Part shown: positions 8,917 through 37,296 of the stretch, piece after piece
Layout of the letters: every line of letters starts with the position of its first letter
Numbering within the stretch: position 1 is the first letter of the stretch
From: a virus
DNA length: 64,000 nt
Direction: 5' to 3' (one strand)
IMG/VR virus record: IMGVR_UViG_3300035684_000001
Location: 62,001 to 126,000 of that record
Position numbers and translations under genes: made by a program
Notes under the pieces: model-generated
The model's input: only the letters and a program-made list of their open reading frames with translations
The model's database searches: none
Told to the model about the DNA's origin: nothing

Positions 8917-8921
8917 ATTTT

Positions 8922-8930
8922 TGGTACAAT
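8922..8930 (+). promoter_or_regulatory. Extended -10 promoter of the tape measure gene (TGgTACAAT)
   Basis: An extended -10 overlaps the first possible TTG start (8921) of the giant reading frame. That makes 8921 an unlikely start, because transcription should begin near 8937. The leader downstream carries the 8961-8983 hairpin. Confidence 0.6.
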
Positions 8931-8960
8931 TCAATGAAACTAATATATCACGCTACGCAG

Positions 8961-8983
8961 GCCACCCCACCCAATGGGGCGGC
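8961..8983 (+). promoter_or_regulatory. 5' leader hairpin of the tape measure gene
   Basis: GCCaCCCCA (8961-8969) pairs with TGGGGcGGC (8975-8983) around a 5-base loop. It is followed by TTTTGTTGTTT, a GGGGGG run (8995-9000) and a TTG at 9005. The order hairpin, T/G-rich stretch, Shine-Dalgarno, start is the same as before the S74 fibre gene at 37863-37912. It may be an attenuator or an mRNA-stabilising 5' hairpin. Confidence 0.6.
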
Positions 8984-9004
8984 TTTTGTTGTTTGGGGGG
9001 AATT

Positions 9005-18000: not shown

Positions 18001-21000
18001 ATTGGGTCTTGCAGCTAAACGCCGTGCAGCAACTTTGGGTGATCGGATTGAATACACCAAACAGTTTAACTCTCCTGCTTCTAAGGCAAAAGCAGCTTTG
18101 TTTGGACTTGCTGAATTGCTGAAGACTGCTTCTCAAAAAGTTGGGCAGGGAGCTGATGCGCTGAACGCGCAATCGCGCCAAGCTGCAATTCCCCAAAGCG
18201 AAACAACAATTAGAGAAGCCAGTCGGGGAGGGCGACGCCACTACAGAAGTTTAGAGCGTCGCGGACTGATAGATTCGGCCGACGTTAGCATTGACAGCGG
18301 GATGGCTGAATATGCTAGCAATATACTCCCCTTGACCGAGAAGATATCCGCATCAATACTGAAGGGCGCTTCGTCCGCAGCCAGAGGAATTTCTACTTAC
18401 TTTCAAGGAGCGGCTACCCGCACGGAAACAGCATGGCAAGAAGCCACCAACAGAATTACTGGGAATAATTGGTGGACGATGGTGAAGCGCGCTGCGTGGG
18501 CGGGAGTCAAGATTGTGACCAGCCTCAACCACCGCGCATCCGACGTAACCAGCGCAGCCTGGGAAAATACCGAGCATTCTACCGCTGCAAATATGAACCA
18601 GATGGCTCAGGTGGCGGCGGGGACAGGGGCTGAAATTGCCCAAGATATGCAGCGCGCGGCGCAAGTTACTCAGCAGTCGATCGCCCACATCCCTCAAGTC
18701 GCAGAGCAAGCCACAACAAAATCAGTTGGATTTTTCCATAAATTAGTCGGTGCGATGGGCGGAGTTGGCAAGGCTGGAATGGCAGTGGGCGGTGCAGTGA
18801 CAGCAGCCGGATTTGCAGCGCAGACAGCTTTTTTCTCGCTACAAAACATGGGCTTTATCGACGAAGCTACAGGTCAAAGTCTTTATAAAGTAACAGAGTT
18901 GTTCACGTTGGTAGGTGCAGTTGGCGGACTGGCCGCTCCGGTACTGACTGCGTTGGGAGCTAGCTTTGGGGCGATTGTCTCAATTTCGGGCGCAACGATC
19001 GCCGGACTAACTGGCATTGGCGGAGCGATTGCCGGAGCGATGGGAGTAGCAGCGCTACCGCTAGCTCCTTTGATTGCAGGGGTTGCGGCGATCGGGCTAG
19101 CTGCGGGGGGACTATATTTAGCATTTAAAAATAACTTTTTAGGAATTGGAAATTTGGCGCGATCAACTGGAGATATGCTTTCTCAAGCCCTGTCAGCCCC
19201 GATTTCCTTTATTACCGCTGCGTGGCAAAGATTTATCGATGCGTTTGGCGGGAAATTGATGGCGATCATCCAGCCAGCACTAAACGTAGCGCAAGGTTTG
19301 ATAAACGCTCTCAACCACAACCCTACGGAGAAAATACCGACGGCATGGGAGGGAGCTGTTGCAAGCATAACAGGCTTGATACAAGGGATGGTCGCTCCAG
19401 CGAAGGGGGTAGGAGAAGAAATGTCCGAAGTGCTCCAAGCTGATGATGCCAAGCAGCGACGCAAAACGGAATTTATAAATTCAATAGCATTAGGAGCTAC
19501 AGGTGAAAAACAGAAATTGTCGTGGCAGGAGAATCTACAGATAGGCTTCGGTAAGGTTGTCGCTGCACTTACTTCGGTACTGTCGCCTCTTGACTCTGTT
19601 GGTAAGAAGTTAGACATTCAAGCTCAACTCCTCCACGCTCAAATCAGGCAGCAGCAGACCGCACAGGCGCAAACACTTTGGAGGTTCGCCACCAACAAAG
19701 AAAGGAATAAAAATCTAGCGACAAGAATAGAGGGAATGCTTCAAAGAAGATTCTCAAGGGAAGCGCCGCAGCAGTTAAGTCACTCTGCCCGGACTATGGG
19801 CGGTTTTGTCCCTAGAAGCGGTACAACAGCAACTGCTCCGCCGATGTTGGGGGCATTACAGCAAAGTGGAGCGGGTAAAGGTATTTCAAAATTCGGTAGT
19901 TTGCTTAAACCGATTTTTGGGTTAGGGATGTTAGGAGAAGTTGGCACATTAATGCTAGGTATAGGGGGGATAACAACCGCTCTATCTGTTCTCACGCTTG
20001 CTTTCACTACTGACTTTGCGGATATTAGGACAAAGACGGTTAAGTTAACAACGGCGATTGGTCATCTATTCTCCGGTGCAGTTCAAACGATTCAAAGAGC
20101 TTGGACGGGATTTGTACACTGGTTTCTTGATATGCCATTGGTCGATACCGCTTTAGAAATGGCATTGGGTCTTATTGATGCTTTAAATCACAACCCCACA
20201 GAGAAAATCCCAGCAGCATGGGAAGGTGCTGTAGAAAGAATATCAGGAGCGATAAATTGGTTGATAACACCAGCTAAGGAAGTTGCTGGGATATTGACGG
20301 GTGTATTTTCGCCAGTTAGTGACTTTTTTAGTAGTAAAGCAAAACAGGCAAACTTAGTCGTTAGTCAAGGTAAAGAAGCTGTTGTTAATACCAAAAATTC
20401 ACTGACAAACACTTATGCCGGAATGGAAGGTTTTTTCACCCAAGGTTCTCGGGCGATCGAGTCTGAGTTGCATCTACACGGACAGATATTTCTATCGATA
20501 GTTTCTACGCTCAATAACATTGCTTCTTATACTAAATCTTTGCTTTCTCTACTCGACAAGACTCAAGAAGAAACAAGGTCGTCGGCAGTCGCTCAAGCTC
20601 CCGATCTAGGAAAAAGTTCTGTGTTGGCGCAGCGCAAATATCAAATCGGGTTTGGCTTAAAAGGTGAAGGATGGAAAAAAAGAACCGAACAATCAAGACA
20701 AAAAGATATTTCCAATGATTTAGGTCAACAAAAAAGAGGATGGAATCTATTTGATAGAGTACACATTCCCGATTTTATAGAAATTAGAAATGTATTTGAC
20801 AAAGAATCTGCGTTTAGAACGCAAATTCAAGCTCAGATGCAGAAAGAAGAACTTAAGATTGCAGACACGATTCTCCAAGGACTGAATTCAAAATCATTGT
20901 CCTCTCAAGCAGAATATGCAGGTTTGGCAACGAAGATTACTGTACAGAAAAAAGGTCTTGGCGGACTGCTGGGTCAAACAGAAGATGTCTACAAAATTAA

Positions 21001-24000
21001 TCAAGCCGGTCAAAAATATATAGAAGAGCAATTGGCAGCATCTGCCAAAAATCAAGAAGGGATGTTTTCTAATGCTAGGTTGAGTGCTACGGCTGCATCT
21101 GTGGGAGCCAAGATTCCCGATCAATCGCTGTTAGATAAAGCTTTAATTGGGCAAGATTCATTGAATGATGCCATAAAAATTGCACCGGGGCAACCTGGAA
21201 AGTCGCAACAAATCCTACAACTGGAATCAATAAACAGCATATTAGCTGAAATTTTAACAGTTATAATTGGGCTGCAACCAGCATCAGTTCAAATACCCAG
21301 TAAACAGGTAATTGCTGAACCGCCCCGTGAAAAACTTCTACCATTAGAGGTTAAAGAAACAAGTTCTGCACAGAAATTCTTTGGCTTTTTAAGTCAAAGT
21401 ATAAAAGAAAATGCGCCAAAAATAACCAACTCTATTCAAGGTACTGTTAAATCTGGGATTGACAAAACTAAAGATTTTATTTCTTCACGAAAGCAAGCTT
21501 TTATCGAAAAGAAAACGTACTTGGCAGCTAAAGCAGGTGCGGGTATATTTGGTGGCACAGTTCCAAAAACCCCCGACGCGGTTGGTGTCACTGGAACGAT
21601 TGGCTTTGGTGATTTAGGTGCTAGCAGCACAAATGCAGCATGGGCTAATACCGCTTCAGCTATCACGGCGAACATTAATTCCTTGGTACAGCCAGCGGAG
21701 GATTCTGGGTACGAACTGCAAAAAGCTGTTTCTGAAGGTTCTCCCGGCCCAACTTACTGGATTCGACATTACTGGGAAAAAACTGTCGGGGCGATCGCTG
21801 GGTGGATGGGCGACATCCAGTCAACCGCTCAAGAAACCGGATCGGTTCTGCGCGGTAGCTTAACAAATTCAGCTAGCAAGATATTGCTATCGCCACCAAA
21901 AAACGACCTCAAAAGTCAGGCGATTCGATCTGCAAGTTTCTTCATGCTAGCTGTGGGTGATCGCTATCAGTATCTAGCCGATCGCGGAATAGGTAGCGCC
22001 AGTATTCTGTTCGCACCTGGGATGGAGTATGTCACAAGCAGCCTGAGTCAACTGGGTGAAGATTTAGTTGATTTTACCGGGCGATCGGCAAGAGCCTTGC
22101 TAACTCTAAATTTTGTGGAATTAGGGGACGCAGCTCACGACTTCTTCGGTAACTTCAAATATGGGGTGGGAGGGGTACTGTCGGGATTCAGTAGCATGAG
22201 TTTATCGGCGATCGCCTTCGGACTGTTTTCGCTGTCCGGTATTTCTCCGCTGCTTCTAGTCCTGGGGGGTGTCGCATTTACGGCTGCGGTAATCGTTGCG
22301 AACTTCTTGGGTATCCGAACGATTTTAACTGGGCTAATCAAAATTGGGATTGGTGCTGGCAAGATTTTGGCTGGAGTGCTGTGGGGATTAGTGGAAGCAG
22401 CGAGTGCTTTTAAAACGATCGCCCTAGGTATATTGCCCGCGCTGAAAGGAGATTTCACTCTAATCCAAGACGGCTTCCGGCGGCTGGGGTTTGCGTTTGA
22501 GAATTTTCAGCGTAGCGCGAGCGACGGGTTGAAGACGATCGCCCAAGGTTCAATCCAGATATTGCAGGGATTTGGTGAAGCGCTTGAACAAATTTTCCGA
22601 CCGTTAGGTTTTACCATCAAACAGACAACCGAATCTATCCAGAACTTTTTTTCAGCTTTCCGGTCTGGTGAGCAGGCGGGAGAAATGGTCGCATCTATAT
22701 TGATTGCTGCGGTCAAATCATTCACCAATGCTATCGGTTTTGCCATTGACAGTATTAAAAAGCATTTTCCAGTAATCAAGCAGCTTTTGGTAGAGCAACT
22801 TGATCTCGGAGTGCAGTCGATCAAAGACAAAATCTTTCAGGTTCAGGAAGCGATCAAGAATTTTACATTCAAAGATGCGATCACCAGTATCAGTCAACTC
22901 TTTGGTTCCATAGACGGATCTGTTGAGTCAGTTCCCGATCGCATCAAAAGATTAGCACCGGGAATCACTGAAGCTCTGACAGCACCTCTTAGATATGTTG
23001 GAGACTTCTGGCGGAGCTTTTTCAACACAATTCTCGCTGAGCTACCCCCAGAGATTGTGGCGACGATTCAGAAAGGGTTTGGCGACGCAATCTCCGCAGT
23101 TGAGCCGACGTTCCGGCAAATCCTCAAGACGTTGAACATTGAGGAATACTTTGATCGTGCGATAGTCAAGGTTCAAACTTCCTGGCAACACCTAAAAAAT
23201 TGGCTGGGGCAGAGTAACTTATTTCAAGTTGTGGGCGATCGGCTGCGCGAGGCTTTTAAGCCAGAAAACCTGTCTCAAGCTTTTCTTTCAACTATCAATA
23301 TCTTAGAGGCTGCATGGAGCAAGTTCGTTGGTTGGATGAGCGCAACTAATTTATTTGATTGGTTGTTCGCTCTCTTGCTCAAAGTCGGATCGGAATTTAC
23401 ATTGTTTGGAGATTTACTAAGAGAGAAGTGGTCGGATGTTCAAAAGTTGCTGGCATCTGGACAAGTATTCCAAGGATTCTTTGAGGGGATGAAGGATTTA
23501 GGTAGTAAACTAACTACCTGGGCGCTCGAAATTGGCTTAAAATTCGAGATACCAGCGATTCAAGACTTGTTTGTCAAGATTGCTTTATTAGGGGAAAATC
23601 TTAGCAATACAACGGCATTTATTCGAGAAAAATGGAATAAATTATCTGTTTGGTTAGCTGAGACTCCTCTGATTCCAGGGGCTTTAGACTTCCTAGTAGC
23701 ACTTGGTACAAAGTTTGGCGAGACAATATCTTGGATTAAATCTGAATGGCCCAATTTTATCACCTTCTTAACGTCGGCAGATTTGTTTGCGAATATATCT
23801 GCAAAGATGAAGAGTTTTGGCGAATCAATTCCCTCTTTGTTTGAAGAAATAAAAGGACAGGTAGCTAAAATTATTCCTAGCATGAATGGTGCAATCGGAT
23901 CTATCCAGGTTCAATGGCAACGTCTCACAGAATTCTTGAATAAAAAGGGTCTGTTTACACGGGTGTTTGCGGGACTGAGTGAAGCTCTGAATGAAAAGGG

Positions 24001-27000
24001 CTTGTTTACTAGGATTTTTACGGGAATCCAAGATATTCCGATCGCCCTTGGGAAAGTAGCAGACTGGATTAAGGAGAAATGGCAAAAGTTTGCCGTAGAG
24101 TTTCAAACGATATTGACTCCTATCGTAGACTTTGCTAAATGGCTGGGTCAAACCTTGATCAACTTATTGAACCATAGCCCGACGGTCAAGATCCCTGAAG
24201 CTTGGAAGGAAGCAGTCACCAAAATAACGAATTCGTTGTTGGCACTGATAGCGCCTGCGAGTTGGGTGGCAAGTCAAATTATCGAGAAGTTTAATTTAGA
24301 TGCAGTAAAAAATGGGTTTAAATCCCTGACTGGATTTATCTCTAATTTTGCAACCAGCTTGTTTTCTGAAGTTCAACAGCCACTGACAGACTTGATTGGC
24401 ATCGTAGTTTCTGCAAGTAAGTCAGTCATTGATTTTGGCAAAACTTTGTTCGACATTGCCAAGGCGGTAAATAGTGGGGCGATCGCCTCCGATGAGATGA
24501 CATCTAAATTAACGGGTGTGTCATCCGCCGTCAGACATTTGGGTGAATTCTTAGGAGTAATTCTACGGAGTTTAGGGCAGTTCTCTCAAGGATTAACTTC
24601 CGCTGGTGATGATGCCGATCGCGCATCTTCTGCGGGGAAAGGGTTGGGGCAAGTTGTAGGAAAGATGTTAGCTGGCATAGTTAGTTTCTCTACGACAGTC
24701 CTGCCACCTTTGTTCAAAGTGTTGTGGGTGTTTACGCAGATAGGTATTGAGATTTCAGCGTTCGCACTAAAGTTTGTATGGGCATTTCGCTTTGTACTGG
24801 ATTGGCCTAGTCGGGTAATGACCGCTGTTTTAGGTTTATACAATGCGGTCATGAGGTTTGTCGCGCTGTTGTCGTCATTCTCTCGTAAATCTAAGGAAGT
24901 TTTTGTAGGATTACAGGAAGGTTTTGCAAGCTTTAAGACTCAACTAGCAGGTGTTGCGCTGACTGCGAGTGAAATTGCAAGCAGTTTCCTCGGTTTCGCT
25001 AAAGACATCGGTACTTTCGGCTCGAAGATGGGAAGTGTCATAGCTGAAATATTAATCGGGCTGAAAGATGTAGGTGTTGCGCTTTTCAAGCTCGGCTTAG
25101 ATGTTTCCCTACCATTCGACATCTTCAGTGTGTTTAAAGGGATTCCCGACATAATTTCTAGCATAGGTGCTCTTGGCAGTAACGCCACTGAATTAAAAGG
25201 AAGGTTGATTTCAGAGTTGGGAGAATTGGGTGCAGCGATCACCCAGTTTCTCGAACAACCACTGAAAGCGGTGGGGGCAATTTGGGAAAAAACCGGAGGC
25301 AAAATTGTCGGGGCGATCGCGGGTATCGGTAGAAAAGCCAAGCAAACCGGACAACAATTGCAGGGCGATTTGTCGGAAGCGTCGCCGGGTCCGACTTACT
25401 GGATTCGCAAAAATTGGCTCAATACTACAGAGACTATCCAGAGTCAGTTGTCGGACTTGGCGCTGTCTGCAAAAATTGAAGGCAACGCAATTTACAAATT
25501 CTTAGACCGATCGCTCACCGCGTTATCTCCATCTAAAATTGCCGAAGCCGGGGAAGCACTTGGCGGACTGAAGTTTGATGCGCGACTAGCGATGTCGAAC
25601 GTGGGTCGTAATCCGAAAGTTGACACGCAAAGTAACCTTCATGTCATTACCGCACGGCAGTTGAGATTGAATGAACTCTACAAACAAGGGACGATCGACA
25701 GCAAAGTCTACACCCAAGGTTTGAAGAATTTAGAATCTGCCCACAAGCGGGTAACGCAAGCAGTCGAACAGGATACCGCTGCTAGGAAACAAGCTGGTGA
25801 AAGCGTTAGATCTTTGTCGCTGTCGATCGGTTCCGCACTGTCGAACATTGCCCCGCAGCTAGCGACGCCGATATTCATGTTCAATGACTTAGTGACTGCA
25901 TTCCTAGATATTCGGACTGCAATACCGGGGATGCGAGCTTTTTACGCAGCGAACGCAGCAAGTTCCGTAGCTGCTGACAGCGCGATCTCCGCATCCGCTT
26001 TAACCAAAGCTGGAATCGTGGGGGGTGCTAACGGGGCGATCGCCGCTTCTTACGGGTTTGTTGCGGGTGCTGCCAAGCTTGCCTATAGGTCAATGATTGT
26101 ACCGTTGCTGCCGTTTTTACCTTTGATATTAGGGATTAGCTCTGCCATATTTTTGCTGTACCGAGCTTACAAGGACAACATTGGCGACATTCAAGGGGTT
26201 ATGGAAAATGCAAAAAATAGTCTAGGTAATTTTGGATCGTGGATTCTTGAGTCTATTTCCAGTGTTGCTTCTGGAATTGTTGGAATGATTGCAGGCGTCC
26301 TTGGCCCATTGATTGAGGTCAGCAAATTTGCTTTTACTGTATTTGGGGTATTCGTTGAGTCACTACTGAAGATTGGCGCTGCTTTAGCTGTATTTTCTTT
26401 CCTGGGTCAAATAGGGAGTCTGTTTGTCAGCGCTGGGGCATTTGTTACTGGATTGGGGCTAGCAATTGTTGAATTTTCGACGATCGCTGGAAGTGTAGCC
26501 GCAGTATTTAGCGGAGTATTAGTTCCAGTGATTCTCAGTGGATTGAGTGCAATCTTTGCTGCGGCAGCCGCAGTAATCACCCCCTTTCTTCCTTTGATTC
26601 CATTAATTCTAGGAATTGTCACGGTCGGGTGGGTGCTGGGGAAAGTCTTCAACTTTGTTGGCAGTATTATCGGTGGCGTTTTCGGGGGGATTTGGAATTC
26701 GAGTACCGAAGTGGTTGGAACACTATTTCAGGAAATCAGTAATGTCTGGAGCGCACTCGCGGATCTAGGTGATCAAATTGTCCAACCATTCGCCCAAGCT
26801 TTTGGGGCTATCGCCAGTATCTTTGGCGGGGTAGATGGAAACATATCAGGGGTTGCCTCAACAATCATCCATGTGTTGCTGATTCCAGTTAAGCTTCTAG
26901 CTGCTGGCTTAATTACAATCATCAAGGCAATTTCATTTACGCTAATTGGCGTAATTAAAACGCTAGGGTTTGTTTTCAAGGTTGTCTCGAAGATTGTTCA

Positions 27001-27880
27001 ATCGGTTGCAATTGTCGGTACAGTGATCGCCGGAACAGTCGCGACTTTAGCCTTGATAGCAAATTTTGGTGTCGTGCTTGCTGGGATAACAGGAGCTCTT
27101 GGGGCGATCGGTACTGCTGTATCGGGAGTTGGCAGTGCCTTGATGGCGATCGGAGGCGTATTTGTCACAGTTGTCATTCCAGTCATTATGGGCGGCATTG
27201 GGGCTATAATTGCAGGTATTTCTGCTGCGGTGGTTGCAGCGTCACCTTTCTTGGCGATAATTCTTGGAGTTGTGGCGATCGGGTGGGTTTTGAAAGAAAC
27301 TTTCGTTGTAGTTGGAGGTGCTATTACTAGAGTTTTCCAAGGAATTTGGAACTTAATTCAGTGGGTTGTCACTAATTCAATGGGGATTCTAGCTAATATC
27401 CCCTTCGTTGGCGGATTGTTTGCTCCTTCATTGCGGAGTCAACCTTTACCGAGCCACCCACTACAGGTTCAGCCAGTACAGCGTTATGCGGTCGGTGGTT
27501 TGATATCGGGTCCGGGAACATCTACAGGCGATCGCGTTCCTATTTTGGCTTCACCTGGGGAGTATGTTATCAACGCTGCTGCTACGCGATCAAACCTACC
27601 GTTGTTGGAATCGATTAATCAGGGCGATCGGGTAGAAGCTTCTAACCTCCGCGCATTGCCCGTTCCCGCAACTCCAATTCCCCTTCCCCCTGTTGCATCT
27701 TCGCAGGCGACAGAGTATAACGTTCAATTAATTTTTGGAGATATTATAGTACAGGGTGCAAATCCAGGTTTTGCAGCAGAAGAATTATTACGCGAACTCA
27801 TGAAGCATTTGGAATCACCGCAAGCACAAAGAGTTATTCGCAATCAATTGCGCGATATTGTTGAAAAAGCGAAGCAATAA
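9005..27880 (+). CDS. Giant phage tail tape measure protein, TP901 type
   Basis: About 6,291 residues from a TTG at 9005 preceded by GGGGGG; the frame is open to 8921, but that would place the start inside the promoter. The tape measure protein sets tail length and fills the tail tube before DNA ejection. Seen: a PhageMin_Tail-like core at about residues 195-430 (MSAVAAISRSTGKDLDRL onward). Long hydrophobic helical blocks fill much of the rest. A roughly 1,100-residue hydrophilic, charged block lies at about 1930-3100. The C-terminal signature is GGLISGPGTSTGDRVPILAS followed by GEYVINAAA, typical of tape measure ends. Two internal repeat families occur (SPGPTYWIR at about 905, 4244 and 5458; NHNPTEKIP at about 3435, 3727 and 5055). 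By the usual 0.15 nm per residue the tail would be about 0.9 micrometre; this is an inference. HIP1 sites are frequent outside the hydrophilic block. Confidence 0.92.
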   Translation: MEESLDRYGLVGQFNFLVADGSFSSMKSVVKHLSNMEKAVADASKSVDSNGLAGQFKSAARSLDTSSGNMAKSLQPLKAEFRVLKATAANIDFGDVLDDRQFKKATTAVNTYVKNLKELRKQVQGETAAEREFTEVLKRQQRVIKDKLALHDAERKAAFFSQRKGEFGALQQVGNIALNPLKQAGKEAIQVFAGFDDKMSAVAAISRSTGKDLDRLRGKAKLLGATTRFTAGEAADAEKYLAAAGFNAQQIFAGVPATLDLASAGQLGLAESADIASNVLSGMRMGVSDLGHITDVMALSAASANTNIQQLGVAMSYAAPNAALFGAGIEETSALIGVMSNAGIQSDKAGTAARGAFLKLAAPTVRGRMALIQYGISLTDTSGKMRNIVDVMQDIGTNLQLDPASLDSIIQAGDDVEKLGQLAQSKQISALKDIFGTTGISGASAAISQMQEFTRLSLAGRGSSFAIEDYEKLFKSQGIDKLATDKDVFASLLREAGSYQDALQKLDAATIALVKSNEYLGNLSSTQLSQLSGYFQIPEGENLFDAILATAPDANAAVSKLTSAMGELGIEFKGKSGAAKTMAQVMENNLAGSFRSLGSAFEAVQVNLIEPIAPIVRAISDTLTKLLLAIANLPSPIRGLIAGVGVLTAGFAAVSVAVGTVGVVLFGFSQAAATATAAGIALQASVIPLTGFFPAAMAAFEGTASNPFKTASFAAEAFSDTIASTSKDVNLGLNGIARNIAVVSRSLISMSVSFALSPMGIAIASFLALNAILQQINPEINLLGTIFSAVSSIAGFAVGIIQGFGEALLAALDVPTSVAGSMLTAPFAAVSSAIEYATVAFETWRKSGRAIGVDIFKFVAQPFQLAGRAIETSWNFTLNYIKGLLTPFAGFVARIGKLLQGGLAEASPGPTYMIREKWDYTIAFLEKLFTRIRNAAGLVNRAFLGIGSVTESSKMEAQQQILQGAINLVTNSVKKLSVIGGTITQIQQFERSIIDGVRENFDFLSFTLLTLSSLPLTLLAQLEEGAALIVPELAFIIGEGIPRAFLYAMPGLVAIATSTGLIQGIERGFMGAIDAIPEFLERISDKIYNSLSVGMKQKLNQGLSEGLTSFARSMPAIFPGGVAINVDIDKSYLAIKDFIRGPLVGLIAYLHRVGDLSKEIGKEIYAGIEPILSFNPFTFFPLFSALPPLIPLVTAILPMEKALVSLAKSPSVQGIMGFLTGTVLPAALRTIAAISSLVIFTFNAIVTLPVLAVLQEVISRLTPITEILRAIALNAQSVAAAVGRSLLLAVDRAVIGIAALILEIPYIGKHLSAAFLVGTKALGGFFQLIAASAPRYLNLLLRFFPTKQLVALFSSYRKIFTDLMSGVVYAFREGLNPVSNILMKALNPAAAFKFLAFYIRTKGLAGIIKKGGFGGLSQIFNLANYINPIDIALGLNKSLNEVARLVSGSAVPLDFISRKQAEIFQVLATPAARRLAEREKRLVSLVEILESASGPMKVFIKLVQGLMMVSPIVQIVSRLGLTMLFWYNILKPVNKEMLDAIANTRLLGVSLMPVAKVLEVMRFVVVDLGEILFRFLKAIPGMAATVMDVFDKLGTGIGVTIHEIVGVSSILANVFKFSVINPLAGILLAVIAVADGTLIAVLATFKLIRLKTQQYGDAITALLRGNFVPLVKQIFSDLFGVINFGFQQTAMRAVSAISYLGKTVGTIVGASAAEIVRLIRDPIGEITRLTELSVKSLAAATAGVMVYVRQLQLDKLIRFAADFWPEILAVASVLGRIYGLLSPIQFAIVGLIELGGFLSYEYATGFQNLDKIITALQHPIDALNMAMQGIAGFLGLYISPDLTGFIGNLAEQFVKFLPVIGSGVFAIALLLTRNIGGAFQMISNNVLLFIGRILQVSEAIAGVGDRVRQVASSANIQVGLSEVANKVRRRSTVAGIANPLAYSQDFQTQQQATFLGDQRVAKSKAALRYQKELAKAQQQEQALSERALISEVKRGTDFGKGLADAERRYYLKDKNGITEGVSGAAVEKRRNRFGIEQYQVTDIGRQLLKMSGQGGENVKAGRGLQFENIRREAAKRSGLDAEFSRFGNAPSNEELVKLAGGKNVAIDLLTNFQKAMANLHVEDIKAEYLYVSKSKLPQVSKDKPDSERAFDIQVQRFKDKGNKDIGINSVASSSEIRKEMEAAKKATVNASTAFYSRLNAILAKVKTSPTDSSPSSKMFNPEADTQNYADRLKAAKAVDKQRPQGEFERTLADIIHTINERQTKMIVQTVTGFNNFEEANKQAARELQESSGRSRQVAIGFGEVAVQGVRNLGHSMQESSNLLEGQVASTRNSLVRTLFGWTGIPKILEAMRFDKTIAIQARIVQARTERIARSEATAALVLKRARERGLDALVKNNPEHANLDLLLVKMRQPENKQLYQFFNQFMETGKYQREATGNEITQLTEMLKASFGEKRPEFQGVDNLKTFLDRLKSAPDLNKEDIQKLRRYLTHGTGDRGKQLKENEFEALAKQLTNAGIGGENELLDLRTALRRDESLATVFDQYLLTGKFVLKASQEQQNQIAGFLGLSSSRELKNIDQIKLKNPLEQLKVNVRVYLESIDAGFERFNRSTISQIDSLESKLIKIPFMSVEMAENIVRPLRNFYAGIYRSALSAKDSSIKLAGDLYNAAEASVKGSKFVQRIEKLNKDFRIAQRNSLQHMMTEGREKAPKTHYQFMGQMFAELTKTDIKDRQVQDKILQSILKDQKDSEGNNISIKDRLLKLGMGDRIENITKALGKALDVNEARVREIVENPDYTAKSVAPYQFFLAKAFPDLIKNFTGGVTLLAAKSGAGGLIKKIVADISPALGKPVLIGLSNVIDRARIAMSVGTNRIAREVEGLIGTNPFSNFLNNFSRFLARSGDSLSKFFVDRANGFDAERAKSWTVKIVDKAGELFKTVAGVLVQAGNQAKSQQGGILGAIGNLFSGVKKFFSNVFGNKDIAKLQKQKEAAERLAQSEGDSRLGLAAKRRAATLGDRIEYTKQFNSPASKAKAALFGLAELLKTASQKVGQGADALNAQSRQAAIPQSETTIREASRGGRRHYRSLERRGLIDSADVSIDSGMAEYASNILPLTEKISASILKGASSAARGISTYFQGAATRTETAWQEATNRITGNNWWTMVKRAAWAGVKIVTSLNHRASDVTSAAWENTEHSTAANMNQMAQVAAGTGAEIAQDMQRAAQVTQQSIAHIPQVAEQATTKSVGFFHKLVGAMGGVGKAGMAVGGAVTAAGFAAQTAFFSLQNMGFIDEATGQSLYKVTELFTLVGAVGGLAAPVLTALGASFGAIVSISGATIAGLTGIGGAIAGAMGVAALPLAPLIAGVAAIGLAAGGLYLAFKNNFLGIGNLARSTGDMLSQALSAPISFITAAWQRFIDAFGGKLMAIIQPALNVAQGLINALNHNPTEKIPTAWEGAVASITGLIQGMVAPAKGVGEEMSEVLQADDAKQRRKTEFINSIALGATGEKQKLSWQENLQIGFGKVVAALTSVLSPLDSVGKKLDIQAQLLHAQIRQQQTAQAQTLWRFATNKERNKNLATRIEGMLQRRFSREAPQQLSHSARTMGGFVPRSGTTATAPPMLGALQQSGAGKGISKFGSLLKPIFGLGMLGEVGTLMLGIGGITTALSVLTLAFTTDFADIRTKTVKLTTAIGHLFSGAVQTIQRAWTGFVHWFLDMPLVDTALEMALGLIDALNHNPTEKIPAAWEGAVERISGAINWLITPAKEVAGILTGVFSPVSDFFSSKAKQANLVVSQGKEAVVNTKNSLTNTYAGMEGFFTQGSRAIESELHLHGQIFLSIVSTLNNIASYTKSLLSLLDKTQEETRSSAVAQAPDLGKSSVLAQRKYQIGFGLKGEGWKKRTEQSRQKDISNDLGQQKRGWNLFDRVHIPDFIEIRNVFDKESAFRTQIQAQMQKEELKIADTILQGLNSKSLSSQAEYAGLATKITVQKKGLGGLLGQTEDVYKINQAGQKYIEEQLAASAKNQEGMFSNARLSATAASVGAKIPDQSLLDKALIGQDSLNDAIKIAPGQPGKSQQILQLESINSILAEILTVIIGLQPASVQIPSKQVIAEPPREKLLPLEVKETSSAQKFFGFLSQSIKENAPKITNSIQGTVKSGIDKTKDFISSRKQAFIEKKTYLAAKAGAGIFGGTVPKTPDAVGVTGTIGFGDLGASSTNAAWANTASAITANINSLVQPAEDSGYELQKAVSEGSPGPTYWIRHYWEKTVGAIAGWMGDIQSTAQETGSVLRGSLTNSASKILLSPPKNDLKSQAIRSASFFMLAVGDRYQYLADRGIGSASILFAPGMEYVTSSLSQLGEDLVDFTGRSARALLTLNFVELGDAAHDFFGNFKYGVGGVLSGFSSMSLSAIAFGLFSLSGISPLLLVLGGVAFTAAVIVANFLGIRTILTGLIKIGIGAGKILAGVLWGLVEAASAFKTIALGILPALKGDFTLIQDGFRRLGFAFENFQRSASDGLKTIAQGSIQILQGFGEALEQIFRPLGFTIKQTTESIQNFFSAFRSGEQAGEMVASILIAAVKSFTNAIGFAIDSIKKHFPVIKQLLVEQLDLGVQSIKDKIFQVQEAIKNFTFKDAITSISQLFGSIDGSVESVPDRIKRLAPGITEALTAPLRYVGDFWRSFFNTILAELPPEIVATIQKGFGDAISAVEPTFRQILKTLNIEEYFDRAIVKVQTSWQHLKNWLGQSNLFQVVGDRLREAFKPENLSQAFLSTINILEAAWSKFVGWMSATNLFDWLFALLLKVGSEFTLFGDLLREKWSDVQKLLASGQVFQGFFEGMKDLGSKLTTWALEIGLKFEIPAIQDLFVKIALLGENLSNTTAFIREKWNKLSVWLAETPLIPGALDFLVALGTKFGETISWIKSEWPNFITFLTSADLFANISAKMKSFGESIPSLFEEIKGQVAKIIPSMNGAIGSIQVQWQRLTEFLNKKGLFTRVFAGLSEALNEKGLFTRIFTGIQDIPIALGKVADWIKEKWQKFAVEFQTILTPIVDFAKWLGQTLINLLNHSPTVKIPEAWKEAVTKITNSLLALIAPASWVASQIIEKFNLDAVKNGFKSLTGFISNFATSLFSEVQQPLTDLIGIVVSASKSVIDFGKTLFDIAKAVNSGAIASDEMTSKLTGVSSAVRHLGEFLGVILRSLGQFSQGLTSAGDDADRASSAGKGLGQVVGKMLAGIVSFSTTVLPPLFKVLWVFTQIGIEISAFALKFVWAFRFVLDWPSRVMTAVLGLYNAVMRFVALLSSFSRKSKEVFVGLQEGFASFKTQLAGVALTASEIASSFLGFAKDIGTFGSKMGSVIAEILIGLKDVGVALFKLGLDVSLPFDIFSVFKGIPDIISSIGALGSNATELKGRLISELGELGAAITQFLEQPLKAVGAIWEKTGGKIVGAIAGIGRKAKQTGQQLQGDLSEASPGPTYWIRKNWLNTTETIQSQLSDLALSAKIEGNAIYKFLDRSLTALSPSKIAEAGEALGGLKFDARLAMSNVGRNPKVDTQSNLHVITARQLRLNELYKQGTIDSKVYTQGLKNLESAHKRVTQAVEQDTAARKQAGESVRSLSLSIGSALSNIAPQLATPIFMFNDLVTAFLDIRTAIPGMRAFYAANAASSVAADSAISASALTKAGIVGGANGAIAASYGFVAGAAKLAYRSMIVPLLPFLPLILGISSAIFLLYRAYKDNIGDIQGVMENAKNSLGNFGSWILESISSVASGIVGMIAGVLGPLIEVSKFAFTVFGVFVESLLKIGAALAVFSFLGQIGSLFVSAGAFVTGLGLAIVEFSTIAGSVAAVFSGVLVPVILSGLSAIFAAAAAVITPFLPLIPLILGIVTVGWVLGKVFNFVGSIIGGVFGGIWNSSTEVVGTLFQEISNVWSALADLGDQIVQPFAQAFGAIASIFGGVDGNISGVASTIIHVLLIPVKLLAAGLITIIKAISFTLIGVIKTLGFVFKVVSKIVQSVAIVGTVIAGTVATLALIANFGVVLAGITGALGAIGTAVSGVGSALMAIGGVFVTVVIPVIMGGIGAIIAGISAAVVAASPFLAIILGVVAIGWVLKETFVVVGGAITRVFQGIWNLIQWVVTNSMGILANIPFVGGLFAPSLRSQPLPSHPLQVQPVQRYAVGGLISGPGTSTGDRVPILASPGEYVINAAATRSNLPLLESINQGDRVEASNLRALPVPATPIPLPPVASSQATEYNVQLIFGDIIVQGANPGFAAEELLRELMKHLESPQAQRVIRNQLRDIVEKAKQ
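11717..25418 (+). repeat. Dispersed SPGPTY(W/M)IR module in the tape measure gene
   Basis: Three copies begin near 11717, 21735 and 25377. Each encodes a Ser/Glu-rich lead-in, SPGPTY, W or M, IR and then an aromatic Trp-containing stretch. The nucleotide match is partial, pointing to old internal duplication rather than recent copying. Confidence 0.7.
19297..20290 (+). repeat. Tandem NHNPTEKIP module in the tape measure gene
   Basis: Two well-matched copies begin near 19300 and 20170, each encoding a leucine-rich lead, NHNPTEKIP, AWEGAV and a hydrophobic helix ending in a PAK motif. A more diverged third copy (NHSPTVKIPEAW) lies near 24165. They suggest growth of the gene by intragenic duplication. 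Confidence 0.7.
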
Positions 27881-31398: not shown

Positions 31399-31782
31399 AT
31401 GTATAACACAGAATCAGAGTTGATTTTTGCATTGAAACAATTGGCTGTTAAGCTCGATGAATTCAAAGCCTGGGCTGTTAGGCTAGATGTAGTTAAAGCT
31501 GCGGAAGTCGTAACAATCGCCCCGCCCGATAAACTTGATCGCGCGATCTCCGACCTAAAAATAGCCCTTGCGATTTCTGAAAAAATGCGATCGGATTGGG
31601 GGTTGCAAAAATTCAACGACAAAACGGTTACGGGGCGGTTGATGATTTTGGAGACAAAAATATTCGAGATTCCGCCACTGCTGATCCGATCGCGTCACCA
31701 TTTAAACGACGAGCTGGTTGAGTTGATTGGCTGGGATATTAAGGGCGATCAGCTGCGACTAACTTTTCGGATACTGAGTTAA
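31399..31782 (+). CDS. Hypothetical 127-aa helical protein
   Basis: Starts MYNTESELIFALKQ at the ATG at 31399 (a TTG three codons earlier is also possible). It is helical, with LDEFKAWAVRLDVVKAAEV and LKIALAISEKMRSDW, and ends LRLTFRILS. No known family. It is divergent from the coiled-coil gene and overlaps the 3' end of the response-regulator gene on the other strand by four bases. HIP1-type sites lie inside it. Confidence 0.6.
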   Translation: MYNTESELIFALKQLAVKLDEFKAWAVRLDVVKAAEVVTIAPPDKLDRAISDLKIALAISEKMRSDWGLQKFNDKTVTGRLMILETKIFEIPPLLIRSRHHLNDELVELIGWDIKGDQLRLTFRILS

Positions 31783-32684
31783 CGGAAGAGTTGTTCGATA
31801 ACAACCCTGATTTTATTTTGTATTTCAGGTAATTTGCTTGTCCATTTACTCCATAGCGAAGATGTGACAACAATTGTGGTAATAAAAGTAACAAATATCA
31901 TCTTTAGATTGTCAAAAACCATTTTATAGATTTCACTAAAAATAAATACACATAAATTACAAAACTTTTGATTGAGCTTAAGTAGCCAAATAGCTTTGCT
32001 TAATAGATTCAAAAGTTTAATATTTTTTTCTGTGCTTATAATTTTGAACTCCAATTGAAACTCGCTAAACTTTATATCTATAGTTTTGTAATTTTTTTCA
32101 ATTTCTGTAATTTGCTCTTTCAATTCATAAAGTAAGTTAAGTTGAGATTCTATAGCTTTAATATCGGTTGCTAGCGCCTGCAAGTTACTTGCTCCCGACA
32201 TTAGTAATATTCCGTCAAGTTGTTTTTCTACTCTACCGAGTCTTGCAAACAGCTCGTTAACGTAAATATTTTGTCGCAAGTTTAAATTATTTGACTCAAG
32301 GTTGGCGATCGCGTCTGGCAATGCGCTAGACTTTTGAACTAAATCTAACGCATTTTCTTTTGTTAGGCATTGATATCCTCTTTGTTTTATTTCTTGAACG
32401 AGAGCGGGATTTTTGTTTCCTGTTAGTACAACTATTTGAAGATCGGGAAAACCTTCTGCCTCTAGTGCGTCTAACGCTGCAAGGGGGTTGTCTGATTTTC
32501 TTACTAACCCTCCTAAGTCCAAAACAACACGCTTGATAGTATTATCAGCTTTTAAAATTTCTATCGCATCAGAAAGTTTTGTAGTAGAAGTAACTCCTTC
32601 AAAACCAGACTCTCGAAGAATTATTTCTGCAAATTCCCCATCGTTTGGGGAATCGTCTATTATCAATATTGGTGCGTTTGTCAT
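31779..32684 (-). CDS. Response regulator receiver protein with coiled coil and membrane segment
   Basis: 301 residues. Residues 1-125 form a receiver domain: acidic pair in IIDDSPND, phospho-acceptor Asp in VVLDLGG, conserved Thr in VVLTGN and Lys in LTKEN. A long coiled coil follows (about 130-230). A hydrophobic helix (MIFVTFITTIVVTSSLW) lies near the C-terminus at about 258-275. There is no DNA-binding domain, so output is likely by protein contact, possibly at the membrane, which is unusual for a receiver protein. The start codon overlaps the stop of the upstream regulator by four bases (ATGA), showing translational coupling. It is the third gene of a kinase-regulator-regulator operon. 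Confidence 0.85.
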   Translation of the reverse strand: MTNAPILIIDDSPNDGEFAEIILRESGFEGVTSTTKLSDAIEILKADNTIKRVVLDLGGLVRKSDNPLAALDALEAEGFPDLQIVVLTGNKNPALVQEIKQRGYQCLTKENALDLVQKSSALPDAIANLESNNLNLRQNIYVNELFARLGRVEKQLDGILLMSGASNLQALATDIKAIESQLNLLYELKEQITEIEKNYKTIDIKFSEFQLEFKIISTEKNIKLLNLLSKAIWLLKLNQKFCNLCVFIFSEIYKMVFDNLKMIFVTFITTIVVTSSLWSKWTSKLPEIQNKIRVVIEQLFR

Positions 32685-33094
32685 AAATTTTTAGGTAATA
32701 GCGTGTGCCTGCAATAGAACATCAATATATTATTCAACAGATCTATTGTGTCGTCAAACTCCAAAGGTTTTACAGTATAAGCATTGCAATGACCGTCATA
32801 AGCATCGATGATGTCGTGAGTGTTTTTTGATGTAGTTAAAATAACTACTGGAATCCGTTTTATCCTCGCAGTATTTTTAATGAAACGTAAAACGTCTTTC
32901 CCTGAAACAAGCGGTAAATTCCAATCAAGAATCACTAAGTCTGGCTGATTTGGCTCTTGCAATCGCAAGATAGCCGATCGCCCGGTTTTGACAACTTCTA
33001 GGTTGATGTTAAGTTCTGTTTTTTCAAAAGCAATTTTTGCTATTTCAGCATCGTCGGGTGAATCTTCAACCAATAAAACACTATATTTAGTCAT
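32681..33094 (-). CDS. Single-domain response regulator (Rcp1-like)
   Basis: 137 residues, only a receiver domain: VEDSPDD acidic pocket, phospho-acceptor Asp in VILDWNLP, Thr pair in VVILTTSKN and Lys in YTVKPLEF. The DWNLP and TVKPLEFDD pattern is that of the small regulators paired with cyanobacterial phytochromes (Rcp1 family). It starts five bases after the stop of the histidine kinase and overlaps the next regulator by ATGA, so the three genes form a tight operon. It probably receives phosphate from the adjacent kinase. Confidence 0.9.
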   Translation of the reverse strand: MTKYSVLLVEDSPDDAEIAKIAFEKTELNINLEVVKTGRSAILRLQEPNQPDLVILDWNLPLVSGKDVLRFIKNTARIKRIPVVILTTSKNTHDIIDAYDGHCNAYTVKPLEFDDTIDLLNNILMFYCRHTLLPKNL

Positions 33095-33099
33095 TGTTT

Positions 33100-35025
33100 T
33101 TAAATTGCACTAAATAACAATCCTTCTGTTGATGCTGGAATTGTAAAGTAAAATATACTTCCAGTACCATCACCTTCAGACTCTACCCAAATATTGCCTT
33201 TGTGTCTATTAATCACTTTGCGACAAATAGCTAAGCCCATTCCCGTTCCAGGAAAATCAGATTCGCTGTGCAGTCTTTTCCAAATTTCAAAAATCTGTTT
33301 TTGATACTGCGGATCGATGCCAATACCGTTATCGGCAATTGCATATTTCCAAAACCTAGACCCTTCTAGGTGGCAACTAATCCATACCGAAGGAGTTTCA
33401 GTAAGGTCGTTAAACTTGATGGCATTGCTAATTAAATTTTGAAATACCGAAACCAACTGAGAACGATCGCAATTAATCGTTGGAAAATTTGGCGTTAAAA
33501 ATTCAATTTTTGCTTTTTTTCTAGTTATTAGATCTGTTAAATTGTCTATCGCTTCCTGAATGATAGATTCACTGCTGTTTGGCTCAAATGGTTTTTTATT
33601 TGAATTTATTCGACTTAACTGTAACTGTTCTTCAATTTGTTCAGATAGTTTTCTAACGCTTGACGATACCTTTTCTAGACGATTGGTAATTTCACTGTCT
33701 TTGACTCCAATAATAGTTAACCGATTTTCTAGTAGTTTTTGATTATTGGAAATCGCTCTTAATGGTTCTTGCAAATCATGAGACAGTGAATAAACCACTG
33801 TTTCTAGATCTTTTTGAAACATAAATTGTTCTGTGTAGTCGATCGCTACACCTATAATGTCTCCGTTTTCTAACAACACGGTATGATTGTGAAAAATTGT
33901 TCCGTTAGCGCTAACGAACCCTGAGTGAGTAGAAAGTTCAAAAGCTTCCTTAAAAAACTGTTGATTTTTTGGATAATTTGCATTTTCTTCAAAGATATTT
34001 TTCCCTAATAGTCCTTTGTGAAAAACTTGATAATCGACTAGACTGTTTCCTAAGCAATATGTACAAATTCCTAATTTATCAAGCTTGTATAGGACTATAG
34101 GTGCTGTTTCGATGATTCGATCGAGATAGTAAGCCTGAAGGTAGTCTGATTCTTTGTTGGCGATCGCGCTACAAATTATAAATCCAGCTTTTCTTAAAAA
34201 TGTACTTTCTACCTCATTCCATGCAACACAGGGTGACTCTATTTCGATAAATCCCCAGTGAATGCTATTGATAAAAATTGGTATTACAACTAATTCTGGT
34301 GTTATCACATCTTGATAACTAAGAGTTCTTGTTGTTGATAAACGATCTTCTTTTAATGTAAACAAACATTCGTCGCCAAATAAAATAGAACAATTATTTG
34401 CTTGAAACAACTGTTGCAAAGACTGAATAGAAGCTTTTACTAATACTTGAAACGTTTTCCAATCGCTTGGGGTATTTAACAATGATTTGATTTTGCTTAT
34501 TGTTTTTGTGTGACCGCGATCTATAAATACCAATTTTATGTCCGATCTGGCTATTGCGTACTCCAAATATTGACACGTTTGTATTATAAGCAATAAATCG
34601 CTTTCAACCCATTCACGACTATTTTCGTTCCAGCAAATAAGTGCGCCCCACTCCAAATTGTTGATCTCTATGCAGCCACTGAGAACAGACTCAATTCCAA
34701 GACTAGAAAGCTCCTCGTGGTAAGGAGATCTATCTTTAGTCATGTCAACGCTTTCGTAAATTTGCTGCGACAAACTTCTTAAATGCCGACCAACAAATTC
34801 TTTATGTATTATTTCATTCCACCTGTCTTTTGAAGCGTCTGCAAGAATCCTTGGTCCTCGATCGGTCAAGATTAAGTTAAATTCACAAATCAAAACGCCA
34901 TCACAGCCAATTATTTCTTTGACTTTGGCTGCAAGGGCAATCGCTGCATTGCATATCTCGTCACCTGACAAATTTCGTCCTTGAGGTAGTGCTGGAAGTC
35001 CTAAGAAGTTCTTACTCGTGAGCAT
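33100..35025 (-). CDS. Sensor histidine kinase (GAF-GAF-PAS-HisKA-HATPase)
   Basis: About 641 residues from the ATG at 35025. The frame is open to 35121, but that extension crosses the TATAAT box and the leader hairpin. Order: an N-terminal GAF region related to phytochrome/CBCR GAF domains (SPYHEELSSLGIESV, WGALICW), a second GAF-like region, a PAS-like region, then HisKA with the H-box SLSHDLQEPLRAI. The ATPase domain has LISNAIKF, DNGIGID and GTGMGLAICRKV. The usual chromophore cysteine context is not evident, so bilin binding is doubtful. No membrane segment is seen. The kinase should phosphorylate the two regulators downstream. Its leader hairpin resembles those of the structural genes. 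Confidence 0.9.
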   Translation of the reverse strand: MLTSKNFLGLPALPQGRNLSGDEICNAAIALAAKVKEIIGCDGVLICEFNLILTDRGPRILADASKDRWNEIIHKEFVGRHLRSLSQQIYESVDMTKDRSPYHEELSSLGIESVLSGCIEINNLEWGALICWNENSREWVESDLLLIIQTCQYLEYAIARSDIKLVFIDRGHTKTISKIKSLLNTPSDWKTFQVLVKASIQSLQQLFQANNCSILFGDECLFTLKEDRLSTTRTLSYQDVITPELVVIPIFINSIHWGFIEIESPCVAWNEVESTFLRKAGFIICSAIANKESDYLQAYYLDRIIETAPIVLYKLDKLGICTYCLGNSLVDYQVFHKGLLGKNIFEENANYPKNQQFFKEAFELSTHSGFVSANGTIFHNHTVLLENGDIIGVAIDYTEQFMFQKDLETVVYSLSHDLQEPLRAISNNQKLLENRLTIIGVKDSEITNRLEKVSSSVRKLSEQIEEQLQLSRINSNKKPFEPNSSESIIQEAIDNLTDLITRKKAKIEFLTPNFPTINCDRSQLVSVFQNLISNAIKFNDLTETPSVWISCHLEGSRFWKYAIADNGIGIDPQYQKQIFEIWKRLHSESDFPGTGMGLAICRKVINRHKGNIWVESEGDGTGSIFYFTIPASTEGLLFSAI

Positions 35026-35042
35026 AATTTTTTTCAAAACAT

Positions 35043-35073
35043 AAACCCCTTCTGGGATACCCAGAAAGGGTTT
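35043..35073 (-). promoter_or_regulatory. 5' leader hairpin of the histidine kinase operon
   Basis: AAACCC...TTCTGGG (35043-35056) pairs with CCCAGAA...GGGTTT (35060-35073), a 13-bp stem with one mismatch and a 3-base loop. It lies between the -10 box and the ATG at 35025. Confidence 0.65.
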
Positions 35074-35092
35074 ATTGTAAAGGTTTTGGCTC

Positions 35093-35098
35093 ATTATA
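35093..35098 (-). promoter_or_regulatory. -10 box of the histidine kinase operon
   Basis: A perfect TATAAT on the minus strand, 68 bases upstream of the preferred start. The 35111-35157 palindrome occupies the -35 position. Confidence 0.6.
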
Positions 35099-35110
35099 CT
35101 CTTTTTTGGG

Positions 35111-35157
35111 GTTGGTGGCAATGTTGGGCGACCGGGCTACCCAATATTGCCACCAAC
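35111..35157. repeat. 47-bp near-perfect palindrome upstream of the kinase promoter
   Basis: GTTGGTGGCAAT-G-TTGGG pairs with CCCAA-T-ATTGCCACCAAC, an 18-bp stem including one G-T pair, around an 11-base centre. No T run follows on either strand, so it does not look like a terminator. A protein-binding operator is possible. Confidence 0.7.
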
Positions 35158-35360
35158 TCTTAAGGGCGATCGGTTTACAAACAAGAGCTCCCTTAAGTAT
35201 TGACAGCATTTTTTAGTTTGACCCATAAATTTTTTTCGATAAATGTATCTACTTTACTTTTTTGATCAGTATATTTTATTAAAGTTTTATTGGTATTGAT
35301 TTTTGATTTAAAATAATTTATATTAAAAAAGTAAACCGCAAAACAATAAAAAATAATTCA

Positions 35361-35781: not shown

Positions 35782-37296
35782 ATGGAAGAAACGAAAACTA
35801 AACCGATCGCCCCTGCAACGCCCGCGACTAAGCCGATCGCCCCCGCCGCGCAGCAACCGACGCAGCAATCCTACCCGACACCGGAGGATGTAAAAAAAGT
35901 TTTGCCTCAGTTCGACCTTGACTCGATCCGGAAAAACTTGCCTTACATTCTAAGGGCGATGAACGAAGCTGGGTTGAAATCAAAGAATCAACTTGTTGGC
36001 ATCATTGCCACAATGGGAACGGAAACCCTTAATTTTACGCCAGCATCGGAAATAGGGCCGGGAAGCTCCAGCGTTGAAGGTGGATCAAATTTCAGGGGCC
36101 GTGGATATATACAATTGACCCACACCTACAATTACGAGATGTTTGGGAAGTTGTTAAACTTGCCTCTGCTGCAAAATCCAGAATTAGCCGGACAGCCAGA
36201 AATTGCAGCAAAGATAGCAGTAACTTATTGGCAAGGAAAGCACAATGCCGCTCAAAACTGTCAAGTATCTGCTGAGGCACAAGATTGGCACGAGGTAAGG
36301 CGAAAAATCCAAGGAAATCCCAACGGTCACGACAACGATTTCGGGAGAACCTTCAAGCCCGCGATTGATCGCGCAATGGCAATTTTTAAATCCGGGATCG
36401 ATGGGATGCCAGCCCTCCCGGGCAACACCGGCGCAACCGATTTTGATACCGGAGGAGCACCCGCAGTTACGATGGTCGGTCAGCACAACCCAACCAGTCA
36501 ATTAGGGGCGATGGAAGCGGCGCTGGGATTGATGGCCCTGGACTCCCACAAAACCCATATTGCTCAATTCTATTTAGACCTTCACGGTCAGCCCGATATT
36601 TTAAAGTTAGATGCCGGATTGACATTTGAAGCGCGGGGGCTGGGAGAAGGACTGGACGATACTTATACTGTGGAAGAAGTTCTGTTCCTTTTTGGCGATC
36701 GCCTCGAAGCAGAAGTAACTGCTTTCAAGCCCGATCCTAATGCAAAAATTCAAATGTTCCGGGGTGATGCTTCCAAACCGGATGCCCCGCAGAAACATCA
36801 AGCCGCTCCAGAAAGCGCGATCGCTCAGACTGTCACGGTAAGCGGAATGCCAGTTTCAAAGCAGGGGTGGCGATCTCCTATGGATATTAAGGGAAATTCA
36901 GTTATAGACGTGGGTGAATATGGAAGTGCTAGGGGACGGCATCATGCAGGAATTGATTACGGTGGACATGGTTCCGGTTCAGATCCAGATGCAGTTTTTG
37001 CAGCTAAATCGGGAAAAGTTACAATAGTCAAAACCGACATGAGTGGTGGAGCCGGGCGGATGGTTCGGATCGATCACGGAGATAATACAGAATCTGTATA
37101 CATGCACTTAGCGATGCCAATTTTGGTAAAAGAAGGTCAATCTGTCCAATCTGGTCAAAAAATTGCTACAAGAGGTGGATCTGGATTTGGTTCTGAAAGC
37201 GGATATGCAATTCACTTACATTTTGGAGTTTATATTAACGGTCAAGATGTAAATCCTCGCGACGTTCTTCCTCATCCTCAAGTAGCAAGAGCTTAA
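35782..37296 (+). CDS. Tail-associated lysin: GH19 chitinase/lysozyme-like plus M23 peptidase
   Basis: 504 residues. After a Pro/Ala-rich linker, residues about 40-210 form a GH19 lysozyme-like domain (FRGRGYIQLTHTYNY, NPNGHDNDFG) expected to cleave glycan strands. The middle (about 230-340) is unassigned. Residues about 360-500 form an M23 metallopeptidase with the zinc ligands in HHAGIDYG and HLHFGV, expected to cut peptide cross-links. Two activities in one protein fit penetration of the thick cyanobacterial peptidoglycan by the tail tip or lysis at release. No signal peptide or holin neighbour is visible, which favours a virion role. It opens a tail/fibre gene series. Confidence 0.9.
   Translation: MEETKTKPIAPATPATKPIAPAAQQPTQQSYPTPEDVKKVLPQFDLDSIRKNLPYILRAMNEAGLKSKNQLVGIIATMGTETLNFTPASEIGPGSSSVEGGSNFRGRGYIQLTHTYNYEMFGKLLNLPLLQNPELAGQPEIAAKIAVTYWQGKHNAAQNCQVSAEAQDWHEVRRKIQGNPNGHDNDFGRTFKPAIDRAMAIFKSGIDGMPALPGNTGATDFDTGGAPAVTMVGQHNPTSQLGAMEAALGLMALDSHKTHIAQFYLDLHGQPDILKLDAGLTFEARGLGEGLDDTYTVEEVLFLFGDRLEAEVTAFKPDPNAKIQMFRGDASKPDAPQKHQAAPESAIAQTVTVSGMPVSKQGWRSPMDIKGNSVIDVGEYGSARGRHHAGIDYGGHGSGSDPDAVFAAKSGKVTIVKTDMSGGAGRMVRIDHGDNTESVYMHLAMPILVKEGQSVQSGQKIATRGGSGFGSESGYAIHLHFGVYINGQDVNPRDVLPHPQVARA

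Follow-up and report, generated by a model that had tools for sequence, protein, structure and literature searches.

A probable self-contained two-component system with a predicted membrane output in a cyanophage genome

The virus record IMGVR_UViG_3300035684_000001 (188,553 bp), of which bases 62001 – 126000 were analysed (64,000 nucleotides, referred to as the window), carries a three-gene operon on the minus strand (35025 – 31779 of the window) that probably represents a self-contained phage system of the two-component type, with its output at the membrane. Its genes code, in this order, for a histidine kinase, a first response regulator (RR1), and a second receiver protein (RR2). An earlier note on this DNA had described a complete two-component system in a tight operon, with a membrane-anchored receiver protein and a location among phage tail genes, and each of these features was retrieved. 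Indeed, five bases separate the first gene from the second, the second and third genes overlap in an ATGA, and the catalytic residues are complete in all three proteins. The kinase contains HATPase_c and HisKA domains (Pfam, 5e-23 and 7e-7), with the H, N, G1, and G2 boxes at positions 415, 530, 565, and 593. Its GAF match (0.015) stays below the cut-off, no Pfam PAS was recognised in its PAS-like region, and no membrane segment was found, indicating a cytoplasmic protein. Both regulators match Response_reg (1.4e-16 and 3.8e-6). RR1 consists of a receiver alone, with residues D11, D57, T88, and K109 kept; its Rcp1/RcpA relatives (Rcp1, 1i3c, E 1.3e-19, with 1jlk and 1k68 also among the best structural matches) and its C-terminal extension FYCRHTLLP place it in the Rcp1 type. 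Similarly, RR2 keeps D10, D11, D56, T88, and K109, and its receiver is followed by a predicted coiled coil and a C-terminal membrane segment. The open reading frame (ORF) of the kinase begins at a TTG (33100 – 35121), but the ATG at 35025 is to be preferred as start (33100 – 35025), because the kinase of a close relative begins there (MLTSKNF, 641 amino acids) and because a transcript from a promoter at 35093 – 35121 would start downstream of the TTG.

The operon is surrounded by phage genes, among them an ORF of 6319 amino acids, an endolysin gene, and genes coding for a tail spike, tail fibres, and T4-type baseplate hub proteins. The host of the phage is almost certainly a cyanobacterium, since the whole record contains 112 HIP1 sites (GCGATCGC) versus 1.5 expected. 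The guanine-plus-cytosine (GC) content of the operon is 34 – 36% versus 43% for the phage. The same operon is carried by a close relative (IMGVR_UViG_3300036939_000082, 188,942 bp; G001), with 88, 86, and 78% identity for the three proteins and with the same flanks, save one small gene between the kinase and the endolysin. At this place, the window encodes a 107-amino-acid orphan (35361 – 35684), and G001 an HTH_37/XRE protein (L002:9584-9874). The ratio of nonsynonymous to synonymous substitution rates (dN/dS) between the window and G001 was 0.049 for the kinase, 0.127 for RR2, and 0.063 for the endolysin; dS of the operon (1.1 – 1.4) was near that of its neighbours (0.7 – 1.3), and for RR1 dS was saturated, with a dN of 0.087. 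In addition, the codon preference of the operon lies inside the range of the other phage genes. Judged from these comparisons, the operon is under strong purifying selection and is old in this phage lineage, despite its lower GC content.

A more distant cyanophage relative (G004) encodes all three proteins of the two-component system at 27 – 34% identity. It shares several structural proteins and proteins of unknown function with the window phage at 28 – 42% identity, including a head-tail adaptor. G004 has its triad within the structural block; the window phage has the corresponding block elsewhere and carries the three genes beside the endolysin gene, on the other strand. The triad was thus kept, or exchanged between phages, while its location changed. 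The same structural block of G004 holds a gene (L116:712-2508) with a reverse transcriptase PHROG match and a C-terminal HNH part, probably coding for a group II intron protein. The operon was thus present in related elements, and its dS and dN/dS values speak against a recent host insertion, contrary to the absence and recent host insertion considered earlier. Close-relative scans of viral contigs with each operon protein found G001 alone. A scan of genome contigs with RR2 gave no relative, RR2 had no match at 1e-5 in 291 cyanobacterial genomes, a search with no positive control among cells, and the INPHARED phages and plasmids gave no match to it either.

Sets of this kind recur in other phages. 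A kinase-core alignment scan yielded 17 viral loci, and 13 kinase-bearing phage records representing ten lineages were chosen; the terminase model phrog_2 matched 4 of these 13 records only and cannot certify all of them as phage. Exactly two receivers were present in each of the 13 records (12 by PF00072, the second receiver of G004 by BLAST). Kinase-regulator sets, previously called rare in phages, were thus found in at least ten lineages. In eight of the ten, a coiled coil with a membrane segment accompanies the second receiver, fused to it or encoded nearby. The fusion occurs in the window phage and G001, in G004, and in G005, and G003 has the reversed order of membrane segment, coil, and receiver, with a weak membrane segment and a spanin PHROG match (3e-5). 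The coiled-coil membrane part is a separate gene in the group of Microcoleus phage My-WqHQDG (W01, G009, and G010), in G006, and in G011. In My-WqHQDG (OR578706), a kinase, an Rcp1-like response regulator, a second receiver, and a 179-amino-acid coiled-coil membrane protein are encoded in a row (88.9 – 91.9 kb), beside primase and helicase genes, and only the first regulator is annotated as such. In the window, RR2 resembles the last two of these proteins joined into one. A close-relative scan of viral contigs with the My-WqHQDG kinase found none. HIP1 sites are abundant only in the window phage, G001, and G004, and the GC content across the sets ranges from 34 to 66%, so that the hosts differ by composition. 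The kinase-core tree was poorly resolved, with long phage branches, and gave several separate placements and no firm number of origins. Five further kinase loci (L022, L023, L026, L033, and L034) were left uncounted, as some look cellular and others have no adjacent regulator. Many kinase matches in INPHARED (Listeria, Enterococcus, and faecal 'phage' records) were likewise unused, being unannotated, often short, and similar in appearance to bacterial DNA. Among the loci scanned, L017:4899-5999 (IMGVR_UViG_3300029183_000062) is a phage histidine kinase with an ETR1_N (ethylene-receptor) domain (E 1.9e-26) beside an Rcp1-like regulator, capsid, and fibre genes. Furthermore, holin-looking proteins with three transmembrane segments are encoded near the kinase sets of two lineages (L030:8464-8946 and L020:8378-8959); they are weakly alike (E 0.002) and without Pfam or PHROG match.

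The phage sets resemble Cph1/Rcp1-type pairs and a cellular triad of cyanobacteria and many other phyla in gene order, kinase core, and the subfamilies of RR1 and the second receiver. Among cells, the 80 loci that scored best with the kinase core mostly consisted of a kinase, a single-domain regulator of about 150 amino acids, and then a receiver joined to a histidine kinase, GGDEF, or helix-turn-helix part. The third gene of the cellular triad thus bears an enzyme or DNA-binding domain, whereas RR2 showed no enzymatic or DNA-binding output and the phage third gene has a coiled coil with a membrane segment instead. One automatic criterion, which misses three of the eight phage cases and was designed after the phage loci had been seen, detected a short coiled-coil membrane part with one or two membrane passes in 5 of 10 phage lineages versus 0 of 54 cellular clusters (p = 3.3e-5). 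In the receiver tree, of which many forks were unresolved, the RR1s of phages are placed close to the single-domain regulators of cells, and most second receivers of phages close to cellular third-gene receivers; the three phage rows with the RR1s of the window, G001, and G004 group together with support. The window set has the gene order of the cellular triad, and each of its receivers belongs to the corresponding subfamily. Taken with the comparison of the membrane part, this indicates that the phage set is a cellular triad in which a coiled coil and a membrane anchor have taken the place of the enzymatic output. Several unrelated phages show this substitution, either as a fused part or as a gene next to the receiver.

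Besides the late design of the criterion, several points weigh against a phage-borne system with a membrane output. The evidence is wholly computational; the coiled coil and the membrane segment were assigned by hydropathy and a heptad heuristic, and the AlphaFold models of RR2 (two sequences) and the kinase (three sequences) had predicted local distance difference test scores of 47.6 and 32.9, too poor for fold searches. The RR2 model displayed a receiver fold followed by long helices, at low confidence. In G002, the coiled-coil membrane gene is separate, convergent, and on the opposite strand, and in G007 and G008, two of the ten lineages, no membrane part was found next to the set. G005 and G006 are phages by IMG/VR classification alone. 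Finally, adjacency to a lysis gene is not conserved, given the structural-block location in G004, and the C39 peptidase of L021 was dropped as a link to lysis, its homologue in the window phage lying some 60 kb from the operon.

If the operon does act as a self-contained system, the GAF/PAS region of the kinase would read a small signal from inside the infected cell (of redox, nucleotide, or metabolite type) rather than a covalent bilin, and the kinase would phosphorylate both receivers. RR1, without output domain or membrane part, would tune or buffer the phosphate flow, and phosphorylation of RR2 would alter the state of its coiled coil at the inner membrane. The output would then be a protein contact at the membrane and not transcription; a direct transcriptional output is unlikely because no DNA-binding domain was found in any of the three proteins. 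The most likely use would be the gating of a membrane event of infection, for which lysis timing is the best single guess, albeit a tentative one. Equally speculative is the broader idea that phages repeatedly turned the triad of kinase, Rcp1-type regulator, and receiver into a membrane-output phosphorelay that times a membrane step, such as lysis, by the state of the cell.

A first specific explanation, possible although doubtful, is that RR2 acts as a holin, antiholin, or holin partner gated by its receiver and with an XhlA-like topology of cytoplasmic coiled coil and C-terminal membrane segment, the kinase deciding when the neighbouring endolysin is released. In both close phages, a single gene separates the kinase gene from the endolysin gene, and by hydropathy RR2 (1.75, just under the scan threshold of 1.8) is the sole short membrane protein in the structural region of the window, save a doubtful 69-amino-acid ORF. 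In addition, the membrane and coiled-coil part of G003 is the one matching a spanin PHROG, with a three-segment membrane protein nearby, and G008 encodes a similar protein a few genes downstream. XhlA/holin and Rz spanin families are indeed small coiled-coil membrane proteins with a topology like parts of some phage sets, but RR2 differs by its receiver and matched none of the lysis families (holin, XhlA, or spanin) in Pfam or PHROG. The XhlA-type match of G011 was insignificant (0.08), and other holin candidates with two transmembrane segments lie at 17.9 – 18.5 kb of the record. Moreover, the argument rests partly on neighbourhood and is weakened by the changed location of the triad in G004.

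A second explanation, less probable again, is that of a decoy or phosphate sink. Here the phage receivers would drain phosphoryl groups from Rcp1-type kinases of the host, or host regulators would be fed by the phage kinase, so that light, motility, or stress signalling is rewired; the membrane anchor would place the sink near host complexes. The homology of the parts to common cyanobacterial triads and the lack of an output domain in Rcp1-type regulators would fit. A decoy needs no kinase, however, and the phage kinase is under strict purifying selection and accompanied by receivers in 13 of 13 records.

Thirdly, the kinase might be a photoreceptor with a bilin-binding GAF domain by which the phage times infection by light. 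GAF1 is weakly phytochrome-like, resembling GAF domains of bacteriophytochromes and cyanobacteriochromes, the kinase core resembles bacteriophytochromes, and the host is cyanobacterial. Nevertheless, the canonical chromophore cysteine is replaced by tyrosine in both the window phage and G001 (SPYH at 100), so that covalent bilin binding is unlikely; G004 has SCYK at this position. No Pfam match to a PHY domain was found in the kinase, and one cyanobacterial GAF relative has the same SPY variant with tyrosine. The sensor half gave two weak matches only in the 291 cyanobacterial genomes. The light sensing proposed earlier is thus unlikely for a covalently bound bilin, and a photoreceptor as a whole is very unlikely; non-covalent binding or a different chromophore is conceivable. 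Lastly, it is scarcely credible that the operon consists of recently captured host genes without phage function, as its low GC content might suggest, because it is kept in G001 at dS >1 with dN/dS of 0.05 – 0.13, has codon preference within the range of phage genes, and has a homologue in G004.

Repressors, peptides, and holin clocks are the usual explanations for decisions made by phages. A recurring phosphorelay that is maintained by selection and ends in a membrane protein would give phages a further means of reading their host. Comparable sets occur in several unrelated phage lineages that differ widely in base composition, which suggests that certain phages monitor the condition of the cell they infect and influence its membrane. 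Phage kinases as such are already known. Phage phiCDHM1 carries agr genes, including the histidine kinase gene agrC, without a phage response regulator (PMC3901668); it likewise has a phage histidine kinase, but in peptide quorum sensing and with no membrane receiver. Curli clusters of pelagiphages include a histidine kinase that, in the part of the source available, is linked to curli genes, with no regulator pair described (PMC9599517). A jumbo-phage survey reported a divergent receiver, cREC, never in kinase systems (PMC7824862), which is different from the sets of kinase and receivers. Cph1-type systems differ from the window set by the chromophore cysteine in their GAF domain, lost in the phage, and by the location of the set in phage genomes, and My-WqHQDG by its separate receiver and membrane protein genes. 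A search of an open-access library yielded no relevant paper for phrases such as 'phage-encoded two-component' and 'phage-encoded histidine kinase'.

The operon is preceded by a promoter, a hairpin, and an inverted repeat (Table 1). The promoter matches the sigma-70 consensus at 11 of 12 positions, is conserved in G001, and was the best promoter-like site upstream of 25 window genes scored, above the 99% point of shuffles; no comparable -10 element was found upstream of the endolysin, spike, and hub genes. Promoter-like sites across the region occur in a chance number, and the case for this one is made by position and conservation. The leader hairpin is kept in G001 (z = -5.68), with one compensatory change from A-U to G-C and one change from G-U to A-U. 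Similar hairpins stand directly before the endolysin, spike, baseplate-hub, and two other genes. The earlier claim that the hairpin ties the operon to the phage programme therefore stood in so far as the hairpin is real, conserved, and of the structural-gene type, but the hairpin alone does not place the operon in a late programme, and late-only expression is not supported because of the additional sigma-70 promoter, which is close to consensus. Strong hairpins just before start codons of structural and other genes were seen at 7597-8934, 35782, 37856, 41506, and 53064-57470 of the window. Other window genes have TATAAT-like boxes near their start, giving two leader classes in this phage.

Table 1. 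Features of the operon and its surroundings (positions in the window)
Feature	Position	Strand	Remarks
Giant ORF of 6319 amino acids, presumed tape measure	8921..27880	+	Context; annotation inferred from length and position
RR2, 301 amino acids: receiver, long coiled coil (about 120-230), C-terminal membrane segment (about 231-275)	31779..32684	-	Pfam, hydropathy, heptad heuristic
RR1, Rcp1-like single-domain response regulator, 137 amino acids	32681..33094	-	Response_reg, Rcp1 1i3c match
Histidine kinase, 641 amino acids: phytochrome-like GAF1, second GAF-like and PAS-like regions, HisKA (His416), HATPase_c	33100..35025	-	Pfam, motifs
Leader hairpin, 16-bp stem, 3-nt loop, ending 15 nt before the kinase ATG	35041..35075	-	z = -6.15
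Sigma-70-type promoter, TTGCCA-N17-TATAAT	35093..35121	-	Same place in relative as TTGCCG-N17-TATAAT
Near-perfect inverted repeat with arms of 21 bp that overlaps the -35 hexamer of the sigma-70-type promoter; candidate operator	35108..35160		Apparently not in relative
Endolysin, Peptidase_M23 and GH19	35782..37296	+	Divergent neighbour; same neighbour in G001, not in G004

Elsewhere in the window, three other genes were observed. A protein of 1758 amino acids (514-5790) combines SNF2/DEAD helicase domains with a weak Eco57I methylase match and is perhaps a defence or counter-defence protein. A thymidylate synthase-like domain is joined to a PterinBD-DUF4346 domain (44210-45757), and an IS605 OrfB/TnpB-like gene with a Cas12f1-like TNB domain is present at 51635-52840.

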